A stretch of DNA of 10,155 nt from Bacteroidales bacterium UBA1199 (GTDB lineage: Bacteria; Bacteroidota; Bacteroidia; Bacteroidales; UBA932): positions 7,514 through 17,668 of the forward strand of contig DBXZ01000064.1 in assembly GCA_002309795.1 (NCBI GenBank). The letters are read 5' to 3'. The position numbers and the translations under genes are program-made. Below, in pieces: positions 7,312 to 10,115 of the stretch (within the stretch, counting starts at the first letter, position 1; each line of letters opens with the position of its first letter). A model generated the notes under the pieces. The model was not told the DNA's origin and ran no database searches. It saw only the letters and a list, made by a program, of their open reading frames with translations.

Positions 7312-7340
7312 CGAAAATGGTTTGATATTCTTGCCATCTT

Positions 7341-7351
7341 GCCGCGAAAGG
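7341..7351 (+). repeat. Solitary REP-like arm
   Basis: GCCGCGAAAGG matches the 11-base arm of the hairpin repeats, and GCCGCGAAAGGCGT is shared base for base with the minus strand of the hairpin at 8542-8583. No complementary arm follows at the expected 20-base distance, so this is a singlet or decayed repeat. It lies about 30 bases upstream of the mutL operon -7 box. Confidence 0.55.
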
Positions 7352-7369
7352 CGTACTTTTTGTCCGGCG

Positions 7370-7411
7370 GTCACGAAAGGAATGAGAGAGCATTGCGATG
7401 CCTTTCGTGAC
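7370..7411 (+). repeat. REPIN-like hairpin A
   Basis: A perfect inverted repeat with arms GTCACGAAAGG (7370-7380) and CCTTTCGTGAC (7401-7411) around a 20-base spacer. All 11 arm bases pair. The spacer is asymmetric (begins AATGAGAGAG), which gives the element a direction; by this it points the same way as the hairpin at 8542 and opposite to those at 7442 and 8614. No U-tract follows on either strand, so it is not a standard terminator. Confidence 0.8.
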
Positions 7412-7441
7412 AAGAATATTGTTCTTTTCCGGCTAAATGCG

Positions 7442-7483
7442 GTCATGAAAGGGACGGAGACGGCTCTACATTCCTTTCGCGGC
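7442..7483 (-). repeat. REPIN-like hairpin B
   Basis: Arms GTCATGAAAGG (7442-7452) and CCTTTCGCGGC (7473-7483) enclose a 20-base spacer. Pairing is imperfect at two positions (T against G, which can wobble, and A/T changes in the outer arm). Read on the minus strand it starts GCCGCGAAAGGAATG, like hairpin A on the plus strand, so A and B face each other. It ends 5 bases before the stop codon of the RAYT gene (7489-7491) and would form in the 3' end of that transcript. Confidence 0.78.
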
Positions 7484-7488
7484 CTGAG

Positions 7489-8424
7489 CTAAAGCGCGAG
7501 ACACCGCTTGAGTTGAGTTTCTGTTGTCCGTTTCTTCGTCAGCGGCCACAACTCTTTCCATAGACGGTCGCAAAGTCTTGCTCTTTGAGCGACGGACAAG
7601 TCATACAGGGTCGAAGATCTATGGTATTTCGGCAGATACGTTCCGTCAATCAGTTGGCAGAGATCTATATCCGAGATAAACGCCGGATTGAAGCGGCCTT
7701 TTTCGTTTCGGAGGAACTGACTGATCTCTTCTGACGAGAAACCGGGCTCTATCACCCCCAGCGTGATAATCTGAGTGGAAGAGTTTTCTTCCTGCTGCTC
7801 TCGCACCGACATCTCGTCCCCAACCTTGTTCATCTGATAGAGAAAGTTTCTCGGCGAGACATACATCGCCTCGACCTGAGACGTATCGAGGATGTTTTCC
7901 CGAAGCAAGAGTCCGTTCATGTCCATCCGGTATTTGTCCGGCAGGGATACACCCTTGGGGAGATATTTATAACGCTGATCCGCCGCCATCAACGACGCCG
8001 TTTCCGGAACACCCAGTTCCCGCCGGAAAAAGGTTCTTGCAGAACAGTGCCTATAACCAAACGGCGTTTGCGAGAGTCCGTGGTGAATGCCCTGCCGGTT
8101 CACGTAATTCAATGCTGCAAGCGTGTGATGGAAGCCTTCAATGATAAGCGAAAAGAACTGCTTCTCTCCCAACCGGCCGCTGCGACGATACTTCGAATTG
8201 AAATATCTGGCATATGCGTACCGGGTCCGGTGCATTACTTCGGAGGAATTGTCAGTTTGGATCAGTCCGTGAAAATGCGTGGACATGAATCCTTCGGAGA
8301 GAAGGCGGGAGTCCGTTTCCAATACTGCAACCGCAAGCGAATTGAAGCCGCGGATCAAGTCGGCTTCGCTCCGGAACATCACTTCATCGTGGGAAGAGAG
8401 ACAGATGTGACAGGTCTTTCTCAT
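7489..8424 (-). CDS. REP-associated tyrosine transposase (RAYT, Y1/HUH family)
   Basis: A 311-residue protein with an IS200-like Y1 transposase domain in residues 1-120. The HUH motif is THFHGLIQ (H50, F51, H52), preceded by the family's GFMS strand. The catalytic tyrosine is most likely Y107 in ALNYVNRQGIHHGL (104-117), matching the Y-(I/V)-x-x-N/R-P region of RAYTs. Such enzymes nick single-stranded hairpin DNA through a tyrosine link. About 190 residues follow the core, ending in a basic stretch (TKKRTTETQLKRCLAL), far longer than minimal Y1 transposases of roughly 150 residues. The ATG at 8424 starts the family-like MRKTCHICLS; an in-frame ATG at 8454 is the alternative, and the frame stays open to a TTG at 8742. 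Base composition is less GC-rich than the mutL operon, consistent with a separate origin. Confidence 0.82.
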   Translation of the reverse strand: MRKTCHICLSSHDEVMFRSEADLIRGFNSLAVAVLETDSRLLSEGFMSTHFHGLIQTDNSSEVMHRTRYAYARYFNSKYRRSGRLGEKQFFSLIIEGFHHTLAALNYVNRQGIHHGLSQTPFGYRHCSARTFFRRELGVPETASLMAADQRYKYLPKGVSLPDKYRMDMNGLLLRENILDTSQVEAMYVSPRNFLYQMNKVGDEMSVREQQEENSSTQIITLGVIEPGFSSEEISQFLRNEKGRFNPAFISDIDLCQLIDGTYLPKYHRSSTLYDLSVAQRARLCDRLWKELWPLTKKRTTETQLKRCLAL

Positions 8425-8504
8425 GGCATTTCGTTTTTCTGTTTCACAATTCATTCGCACTGTCCGTCCGCCGCGGTCAACCGCACCGACGAAATGCTTT
8501 TCTG

Positions 8505-8512
8505 CGAAGATA
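8505..8512 (-). promoter_or_regulatory. Possible -7 box of the RAYT gene
   Basis: The minus strand reads TATCTTCG, one base from the TAnnTTTG consensus, about 50 bases before the ATG at 8454 and 80 before that at 8424. No convincing -33 box is seen. It lies between the RAYT start and hairpin C. If it is used, transcription starts inside the open frame, so the extended protein from 8742 would not be made from it. Confidence 0.3.
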
Positions 8513-8541
8513 GAGAATTCCCGCGAAGAAACCTCGCTTTT

Positions 8542-8583
8542 GCCACGAAAGGTATGAAAGAGCTGCACGACGCCTTTCGCGGC
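8542..8583 (+). repeat. REPIN-like hairpin C
   Basis: Arms GCCACGAAAGG (8542-8552) and CCTTTCGCGGC (8573-8583) enclose a 20-base spacer that begins TATGAAAGAGC, close to that of hairpin A. One A-C mismatch interrupts the stem. It is the counterpart of hairpin A in the second compound repeat and lies just upstream of the RAYT leader. Confidence 0.8.
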
Positions 8584-8613
8584 AGAGAATCCGGTATCTT
8601 CCTCCCAAACGCG

Positions 8614-8655
8614 GACACGAAAGGGACGGATGTGCCACAGTATTCCTTTCGTGGC
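8614..8655 (-). repeat. REPIN-like hairpin D
   Basis: Arms GACACGAAAGG (8614-8624) and CCTTTCGTGGC (8645-8655) enclose a 20-base spacer that begins GACGGA and ends ATT, as in hairpin B. One outer position (A against G) fails to pair. It starts exactly 72 bases after hairpin C, the same pitch as A to B, and faces C. Confidence 0.8.
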
Positions 8656-8698
8656 CAGTTGGGCGAACTCAGCGGCGCGGAGCGGGCGGACGCAGTTG

Positions 8699-8752: not shown

Positions 8753-8762
8753 TAAGACTTTT

Positions 8763-8767
8763 GGAGG
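8763..8767 (+). promoter_or_regulatory. Shine-Dalgarno of orfA
   Basis: GGAGG lies 8 bases before the ATG at 8776 and decides the orfA start, ruling out the in-frame TTG at 8761 that overlaps it. A strong site like this is unusual among the host genes of the window and supports a foreign origin for the element. Confidence 0.75.
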
Positions 8768-8775
8768 TCATTGTT

Positions 8776-9297
8776 ATGAGTAAACACAGTATTGAAGAAA
8801 GACTATCAGCCGTTCAGAGATATCTTAACGGCGAAGCATCCACTTTCATTGAAAAACAGACAGGGATTGATCATCACGACATTATTGTTTATGCGATGCG
8901 TTATCGCCGTGATGGTTTAGCGGGACTAGAAAATCGGAAGCAACATTGGTGTAGCTATGATGAAAAGAAAGCGGCGGTAACTGACTATTTGAAAGAATCG
9001 TTAACTTTGGAAGAGATTGCAGTGAAGTACGATATAAGCATTGCATGCTTTAAAAGTTGGGTGCGTGCTTATAAACGTGAAGGCACTGATTCGTTGAAAG
9101 ATAAACGATACTTCCTAATTAACAACTCACTAATGGCTAAATTACGAAAAGACCTTTCCAAAATGTCCGAGGCAGAGCTTCGAGACCTGGTTAAGGATCT
9201 AGCAGCCGAAAATGCGCTGCTAAAAAAAGTAAAAGCCTTAGTCGAAAAGAGGGAGGCCCAAGAACAAGCGACTGGGTCGAAGCCATCCAAGAACTAA
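8776..9297 (+). CDS. IS3-family transposase OrfA (helix-turn-helix protein)
   Basis: A 173-residue protein with two helix-turn-helix regions (about residues 5-45 and 70-105, the second containing LTLEEIAVKYDISIACFKSW), which in this family bind the terminal repeats. A leucine-zipper-like coiled coil follows (about 125-160, LRDLVKDLAAENALLKKVKA) and mediates multimerisation. The A7G run used for frameshifting lies in the codons of ALLKKV, so OrfA is the product of ribosomes that do not slip and OrfAB that of those that do. OrfA alone usually represses or modulates transposition. The start is set by the Shine-Dalgarno at 8763-8767. Confidence 0.9.
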   Translation: MSKHSIEERLSAVQRYLNGEASTFIEKQTGIDHHDIIVYAMRYRRDGLAGLENRKQHWCSYDEKKAAVTDYLKESLTLEEIAVKYDISIACFKSWVRAYKREGTDSLKDKRYFLINNSLMAKLRKDLSKMSEAELRDLVKDLAAENALLKKVKALVEKREAQEQATGSKPSKN

Positions 9298-9300
9298 GGC
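9222..9300 (+). promoter_or_regulatory. Programmed -1 frameshift signal (A7G slippery site plus stem)
   Basis: Seven A bases followed by G (9222-9229) lie at the orfA codons CTA AAA AAA GTA. After a -1 slip the frame is open from 9222 straight into orfB and reads DWVEAIQELRPEHDLDRLLR, typical of IS150-type OrfB N-termini. Six bases after the A-run, GCCTTAG (9235-9241) can pair with CTAAGGC (9294-9300), with an inner six-pair stem of GGCCCA (9255-9260) with TGGGTC (9273-9278, one G-U). A stem at this distance is what stimulates frameshifting in IS3 elements. The orfA stop lies inside the 3' arm. Confidence 0.8.
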
Positions 9301-9323
9301 CAGAACATGATCTCGACAGGCTA

Positions 9324-10115
9324 TTGAGGATCAAAGGGATGGCGCGTTCTACGTTCTATTATCACTTGAAAAGAATAGGACTTTCTGATGGTTATGATGG
9401 CCTTAGGAAAGAAATCAATCGCATATATGAAGAGAATCGCGGTTGGTATGGTTACCGACGAATCACCCTCGCCTTACGTAACGAGGGCATCTTGGTTAAC
9501 CATAAGACAGTTCAGAAACTGATGGGACGGATGCACTTAAAAGCTAAGCAGAAAAAGGTTCGTTACCGTTCCTTCAAAGGAGAAGTCGGGGTTGTTGCGC
9601 CAAACGTGGTTGACCGCAACTTCAGGTCAGATAAGCCCTATCAGAAAATGACAACAGACGTGTCTCAGGTATCGATAAATGACACTAAGATGTTCTTTTC
9701 TCCGTTGCTGGATATGTATAATGGTGAGATAGTAACTTACACCATAACGGACCGGCCAGATCTACATATGGTAACCGATATGATGACACAAGCCCTTCGG
9801 GAGATAAGCATCCCCGAAGGCTGTATGATACACTCTGATCAAGGTTGGCATTATCAGCATAAATACTATCAAAAACTACTGAAAGACAATGGAATAATAC
9901 AAAGCATGTCAAGGAAAGGAAACTGTCTTGACAACGCGATGATGGAGAACTTTTTTGGAATAATGAAATCAGAGTTGCTATATTTGAACAAGTGGGATAG
10001 CATGGAGCAGTTCAAAGCTGCTCTCCGGGAGTATGTCGACTACTACAACAATAAACGTATCAAACTACGGTTAAAAGGACTGAGTCCGGTACAATACCGA
10101 ACTCAGAACATGTAA
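9324..10115 (+). CDS. IS3-family transposase OrfB (DDE integrase domain)
   Basis: The catalytic part of the transposase, 263 residues from a TTG at 9324. In the cell it is probably made as an OrfAB fusion by -1 frameshifting, which adds 34 residues from 9222. An HTH_21-type segment (about 24-68, with ENRGWYGYRRI) precedes the rve-type integrase core. The triad is D112 (TTDVSQ), D172 (IHSDQGWHYQ) and E208 (NCLDNAMMENFFG), with the D(35)E spacing of the family. The YVDYYNNKRIKLRLKGLSPV tail is also typical. All catalytic residues are present, so the element is probably active. The stop lies 16 bases before the right inverted repeat. Confidence 0.93.
   Translation: MRIKGMARSTFYYHLKRIGLSDGYDGLRKEINRIYEENRGWYGYRRITLALRNEGILVNHKTVQKLMGRMHLKAKQKKVRYRSFKGEVGVVAPNVVDRNFRSDKPYQKMTTDVSQVSINDTKMFFSPLLDMYNGEIVTYTITDRPDLHMVTDMMTQALREISIPEGCMIHSDQGWHYQHKYYQKLLKDNGIIQSMSRKGNCLDNAMMENFFGIMKSELLYLNKWDSMEQFKAALREYVDYYNNKRIKLRLKGLSPVQYRTQNM

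Follow-up and report, generated by a model that had tools for sequence, protein, structure and literature searches.

A RAYT-like transposase gene of a Bacteroidales bacterium, flanked by paired palindromes of fixed geometry, as a probable REPtron-like unit of an undescribed family

The stretch of DNA analysed here (the window, 10,155 nt from the gut bacterium Bacteroidales bacterium UBA1199) carries a Y1/HUH transposase gene with two palindromes on either side. This locus is probably a REPtron-like unit belonging to an undescribed Bacteroidales family that resembles the transposases associated with repetitive extragenic palindromic sequences (REP-associated tyrosine transposases, RAYTs), and the Y1/HUH protein would spread its own paired palindrome while its gene stays put. 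At the level of sequence, this reading draws on an intact Y1 enzyme whose predicted fold resembles that of TnpAREP, on palindromes of fixed geometry beside many homologues, with arms that change with the protein, on gene-less copies in relatives, on presence or absence of the element at one orthologous site, and on the absence of near-identical copies of the gene from the loci compared. We infer from these features that the protein binds and cleaves the palindromes, that its substrate is single-stranded DNA, and that it drives the spread of the element.

The Y1/HUH gene is intact; it occupies 7489..8424 on the minus strand, with its stop codon at 7489-7491, and encodes 311 amino acids (aa). 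An open reading frame (ORF) of 417 aa extends back through the right palindrome pair; the start was placed at the ATG at 8424 because most of the aligned homologues use the corresponding start. Downstream of the gene lie the palindromes 7372..7411 (core CGAAAGG-N20-CCTTTCG) and 7444..7483 (core TGAAAGG-N20-CCTTTCG), the second ending a few nucleotides from the stop codon, while those at 8544..8583 and 8616..8655 lie upstream. The four hairpins that a first-pass annotation had seen bracketing the gene were confirmed: all four have the same build, with start spacings of 72, 1100 and 72 bp, and their 7-mer arms are separated by exactly 20 nt, as had been proposed. The core CGAAAGG/CCTTTCG, described there as common to all, is perfect in three palindromes, and the fourth, with a TGAAAGG arm at 7446, has one mismatch. 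A covariance model (R1) built without the window sequence matches a left paired-palindrome element at 7348..7505 (47.8 bits, E 3e-13) and a right one at 8534..8657 (49.5 bits, E 9e-14); an extra, fifth half-site, TGCCGCGAAAGGCGT, occurs at 7340..7354, just outside the left pair. A strict same-arm scan recovered the right window pair and missed the left. Judging from the letters common to their loops, the right pair would, in our own reading, be a direct and not an inverted copy of the left.

The same arrangement recurs beside homologous genes. A genome-contig scan yielded 71 loci from 52 assemblies (loci and genomes are cited by the handles L and G), all of them titled Bacteroidales or Bacteroidia, which agrees with the Bacteroidota host that had been proposed. 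Identical arms were found on both sides of the gene in 32 of the 68 loci with both flanks (window included), against 0 of 68 shuffled loci (one shuffle each), and block-shuffled controls of 72 loci, again with one shuffle each, contained no shared-arm palindrome pairs. When spacings from 40 to 130 bp were scanned, all 38 near-gene pairs, and six of ten pairs further from the gene, fell at 71-73 bp. Near-gene same-arm pairs at 71-73 bp occur in 26/71 loci, a covariance-model match anywhere in the fetched locus in 39/71, and one or the other in 46/71; the union with looser scans reaches 57/71, or 55/71 when single-partner rows and two short-loop loci are left aside. Such counts vary with strictness (window included, 32/68, 27/72, 38/68 and 18/72), the 38/68 scan having no shuffle control and counting single-partner loci, and the 18/72 scan comparing arms in register, with none in shuffles. 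The first-pass annotation had named two findings that would speak against its idea, namely homologues lacking flanking hairpins and a repeat occurring nowhere else in the genome; in the relatives, the 46 loci above possess pairs or model matches, and copies away from the gene were found. A spacing of 83 bp was seen in a few distant loci (L034, L042, L056 and L065; the register-based scan shows L056 only).

The arms themselves differ among loci (CGAAAGG, GGACGCTCG, CGACGCA, CGACAGG, CGGTATG, CAAGATG, CAGAAAC, CGACCC and others), and four paralogues of a single genome (L002, L014, L019, L025) have four arm types. Arm distance correlates with protein distance (Mantel r 0.52, 0/2000 permutations, 30 loci, locus relatedness not removed). 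The earlier proposal that the gene and its repeats form a separate family, a Y1 type with cognate repeats of its own, is supported. In L001-L003 the two flanking pairs are inverted relative to each other, whereas L005, L008, L009, L011 and the window have them as direct copies. At L129:14456-14489 there is a one-palindrome derivative whose left side is that of the first palindrome in neighbouring copies and whose right side is that of the second. When L001 is compared with L002 and L003, the gene and its elements keep their order, and an outer flank lies inverted on the opposite side, with breakpoints at the elements; for L001 and L002, only one of the two outer flanks was matched.

In 29 elements of several arm types, picked for orientable loops and aligned, the stem reaches ~13 nt, the first loop contains TATCTC or a close variant throughout, and the right end contains GC in every case. 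The left end CTTKATCYCATT and second loop AAGCGGCGCC are present in most of them, though not in the GGACGCTCG type, and the window pairs share the geometry and arms of the aligned elements but not their loops. In the stems, two-sided change was seen in 157 cells, compared with 59.6 in shuffled alignments, and the covariation score reached 0.529, where shuffling gave 0.195 and sliding no more than 0.193. This test is favoured by selection, the palindromes having been found as palindromes. The element ends may also pair with the loops (CGGCGC with GCGCCG). A presumed resemblance of a TTNATC left end to an ISDra2-like target was dropped, as was the possibility of attC-like sites.

In the protein, the HUH motif and catalytic tyrosine recognised earlier hold throughout the family: an alignment of 59 sequences shows no variation at H50, H52 and Y107, nor at Q111, H114, H115 and G116. 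The family motifs read T-H-x-H and Y-x-x-x-Q-x-x-H-H-G, and the window-family protein carries a C-terminal extension of ~170 residues. An AlphaFold model of the window protein (predicted local distance difference test 93.4) has 4er8 as its best structural match in the PDB, and the predicted fold is TnpAREP-like. By sequence, the window protein has no match in the PDB and none to Pfam Y1_Tnp at E<=1; 58 of the 59 members likewise lack a Y1_Tnp match even at E 1, the single match having E 0.084. Against NCBIfam NF047646 (REP_Tyr_transpos), the window protein scores 16.9 bits, below the cut-off of 80, and matches at E<=1 were obtained for nine of the 59 members, the best having E 1.5e-4. A second Y1 family of ~310 aa (DHIH, YLYNNP) occurs in the same genomes (L276-L278, L280-L285), where the loci read display a single short-loop hairpin on one or both sides of the gene. 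In a profile alignment to this family (hhalign, probability 75), H50/H52 correspond to DHIH and Y107 to the first tyrosine of YLYNNP.

Copies away from the gene were sought in relatives, from which their presence elsewhere in the window's own host would follow by extension. Whole-pair patterns (<=3 mismatches) matched in 6/14 genomes at one linker length and 8/14 at the other, and a reversed-pattern control gave no match; G011, with one close gene, has nine pairs, seven of them away from the gene. G002 has two copies that share 88% identity over 165 bp and no similarity beyond, a further sign of movement. Within one genus, R1 matched in 20 of 40 genomes, the highest count in a genome being 42 (strands unmerged, 74 candidates scored per genome, other arm types being missed by R1). 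Matches occur in 16/17 genomes with a close gene (profile E < 1e-100, a threshold chosen after the list was seen) against 4/23 without (Fisher p 2e-6, shared descent and assembly incompleteness uncorrected, R1 having been trained partly on the 40-genome set). In G007, where the scans cover 1.93 Mb of ~2.0 Mb, a sequence-blind scan (30-200 bp) returned 22 pairs with shared arms, of which 16 have a spacing of 71-72 bp, against none in one shuffle. The 40 R1 matches resolve into 27 places; 12 of these lie no more than 3 kb from a family gene (there are six) and 15 lie further away. A cluster of similar CGACGAC-arm elements, partly in duplicated segments, lies at C4:27.9-42.0 kb (L218, L219) of this genome and includes a hybrid copy.

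A sign of movement comes from L160, where an element stands between two conserved genes in G002 and also in G004. The matches to the two genes are ~430 nt apart in G002, compared with ~22, 47, 63, 146, 198, 201 and 283 nt in G003, G029, G020, G014, G007, G041 and G008, respectively. The insertion is common to two species and apparently absent at the same site in these seven genomes; the gap was read for G008, G014 and G041, and judged in the others by its length and by the lack of an R1 row there among the matches listed. The comparison left out G040 and G009, which have 1.1 kb and 6.9 kb of other DNA at this position, and genomes in which the genes are not adjacent. As the intergenic DNA is too diverged, we claim neither exact ends nor a target site. 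An unrelated ~85-nt repeat at L160:1205-1292 has matches in many genomes of the genus. A similar empty-site comparison at L126 found the left gene conserved and the right side not collinear, and for the dispersed sites of G008 the parts of G007 compared contained no orthologous flanks.

A degenerate copy of the paired palindrome (three mismatches) lies in frame within the linker of dnaX in G011 (L124:1770-1920), and the linkers of 28 other aligned relatives are unlike it; this is a weaker sign of movement because such linkers vary freely. The identification of dnaX rests on the best 25 NCBIfam rows, all named DNA polymerase III gamma/tau; the best model, at 670 bits, is below its cut-off of 685, and NF004046 and TIGR02397 are above theirs. 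The DnaX linkers of L289, L294 and L300 look as though they had received insertions of other repeats.

A mechanism can be proposed along the following lines. The Y1/HUH protein would recognise its own paired palindrome in single-stranded form, reading the sequence of the stem in a unit of two ~13-bp stems with 20-nt loops and centres 71-73 bp apart. It would cut and join at the ends of the pair, and the element of ~120-160 nt would be copied or moved to other, mostly intergenic, sites, the gene itself remaining in place and being inherited vertically. Among Y1 enzymes, IS608, ISDra2 and TnpAREP act on single strands.

An alternative is that the gene travels with its elements. In an autonomous insertion sequence of the IS200/IS605 type, the gene and both flanking elements would move together and the solitary elements would be leftover ends, an account for which the similar elements on both sides of the gene, the one-palindrome derivative at L129:14456 and the Y1 enzyme indicated by the predicted fold could all be invoked. 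IS200/IS605 TnpA proteins (IS608, ISDra2) do share the Y1 fold with HUH motif and tyrosine. Near-identical gene copies within one genome, however, were not found here: 22 within-genome pairs from 15 genomes are 43-70% identical (maximum 69.5%), in a comparison of the fetched genes and not of every gene copy. Moreover, orthologous genes stand in syntenic flanks (L013, L014, L016), and in G007 the elements, with 27 places in 1.93 Mb, outnumber the six genes. Among the loci compared, the window-family gene is single-copy per type and vertically kept, and we regard an autonomous insertion sequence as unlikely.

Still less credit can be given to the idea that the palindromes are structural or regulatory sites of the host, such as transcript hairpins or protein-binding sites, with the transposase gene among them by accident. 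Of 11 dispersed elements examined, nine lie clear of every ORF of at least 130 aa, as might be expected of such sites; the other two are that of L124 inside dnaX and that of L119, which overlaps two ORFs taken as spurious (the second element of L121 is outside the 11). Folding as single-stranded DNA is also compatible with it, all five stretches folding better than the shuffle mean (z -2.2 to -8.1): in the left window pair either strand prefers a single long nested hairpin (z -4.9, -4.3), the right pair folds less strongly (z -2.2 as two hairpins, -3.2 nested), and the L001 element forms two separate hairpins (z -8.1). Host sites, however, would hardly have arms that are tied to one paralogue and differ as it does, occur on either flank of the gene, and be mostly missing, as R1 matches are, from genomes without a close gene. 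Least probable of all are double-stranded recombination sites between which the protein or host recombination exchanges DNA with no spreading, for although the inverted outer flank of L001 relative to L002/L003 with its breakpoints at elements, the hybrid copy in the G007 cluster and the wider spacing of 83 instead of 71-73 bp at a few distant loci (roughly an extra helical turn) would suit them, homologous recombination alone suffices for rearrangement between repeats and known Y1 enzymes act on single strands (PMC6006769, PMC8266576).

Several observations count against a REPtron-like unit that spreads its own palindrome. The covariance model matches only 23 of the 55 loci outside its 16 training loci, and our confidence is slightly lowered for this reason. 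The both-side scan, the looser arm scan and the covariance model all came up empty in 14 of 71 loci (L027, L028, L045-L047, L051, L053, L055, L060-L062, L066, L069, L071), some of which are truncated, and other scans reveal palindrome arrays at L053 and L062. Two of the five measures of covariation scarcely rise above shuffles, or do not: pairs with two-sided change number 26/30 against 22.3 shuffled (6/500 shuffles reach it), and further pair types 54 against 51 (91/500 reach it), and a dimer recognising double-stranded DNA would likewise make symmetric arms covary. G035 has a close gene and no R1 match, and many R1 matches occur without a close gene in G028 (20) and G029 (14), with a few in G023 (2) and G039 (1). 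In G007, nine dispersed CGACGAC-arm pairs have no identified cognate gene, four of them lying in the C4 cluster, which arose partly by segmental duplication, and some copies there spread in this way. Finally, element copy numbers are modest where counted.

Occurrence outside the Gammaproteobacteria, which the first-pass annotation stressed, is not new: RAYT-like genes there, Bacteroidetes included, are already in print (PMC6006769). The closest comparison is with the class 2 TnpAREP/RAYT proteins of E. coli, Pseudomonas and Stenotrophomonas (PMC6006769) and their REPs and REPINs (paired REP sequences). The Y1 fold closest to 4er8, a gene bracketed by palindromes, a cognate repeat type for each gene, dispersed gene-less copies (here in relatives), a gene not amplified among the loci compared, and one copy lying within a coding gene, which has also been reported of REPs, are all in common. 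On the other hand, the GTAG foot is not enriched here (GT[AG]G feet, 10/296 against 9.7 expected, over both stems and strands of 74 element entries, some duplicated under two locus ids), Y-x-x-N-P is replaced by Y-x-x-x-Q-x-x-H-H-G and D/N-H-x-H by T-H-x-H, and the C-terminal extension is particular to the present family. The 20-nt loops and the 71-73 bp pair spacing also differ, and the tens of copies where counted may do so, REP copy number being usually >100 per genome (PMC2817692). Of the resemblance to REPIN-RAYT systems proposed at the outset, the gene flanked by its own dispersed repeats thus stands in relatives, and the GTAG foot and the Y-x-x-N-P motif are missing; the locus seems to work like such a system but is not a canonical one.

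Two subclasses of Quentin come closer in part (PMC6006769, in its passages on them). Subclass 2.6 is found in Bacteroidetes and has atypical, non-GTAG structures flanking the gene, with copies elsewhere, but is set apart by its motifs (NH[LIV]H, YIH[QN]NP; median 179 aa); since such genes have been described, we regard the present family as a new variant and not a new kind. Subclass 1.2, also in Bacteroidetes, shares the Y---Q--HH signature, whereas it has DH[IV]H, a median of 148 aa and no typical structures, against T-H-x-H, 311 aa and palindromes here. TIRYT/TIRtrons likewise combine a Y1 gene with flanking non-GTAG repeats, and some of those repeats recur in the genome, but these are long terminal inverted repeats, unlike the fixed-geometry palindrome pairs, direct or inverted, seen here (PMC3733652). 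No description of the family of the window was found in searches of the open-access literature or in the accessible text of PMC6006769, PMC3733652 and PMC8266576 (subscription papers and supplements were outside the scope).

Perhaps the family is a deeply diverged or separately domesticated Y1 lineage in which specificity resides in the stem of the double palindrome and not in a GTAG guide. Each paralogue would have its own arm code, the 72-bp spacing being kept (together, inside a single genus, with the first loop and a large part of the element ends), so that a genome could harbour several orthogonal repeat-spreading systems; this we hold tentatively, with somewhat less than even confidence. 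Up to seven close gene copies occur per genome (G008), and the family profile is rare in the order, with matches in two of 295 sampled genomes, namely the centre G002 itself and one weak match (E 2e-13).

As to the surroundings, a MutL-type gene lies left of the Y1/HUH gene in the window, and IS3-family transposase ORFs (8761-10115) directly adjoin the right palindrome pair. The window has no Rfam match at gathering cut-offs, and a search of viral contigs gave no match.

That 58 of the 59 members escape Y1_Tnp at E 1 suggests that small mobile palindromes of gut Bacteroidales are overlooked by Pfam-based annotation. Towards the question of how RAYTs choose their repeats, and why hosts keep RAYTs, the family offers many pairs of paralogue and repeat, of one build and with different arm letters, as a natural data set for a protein-to-stem recognition code, for which the several systems in one cell provide internal controls. 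Judged by its sequences, the family seems to be a branch, undescribed until now, of those domesticated transposases that are thought to spread small repeats.
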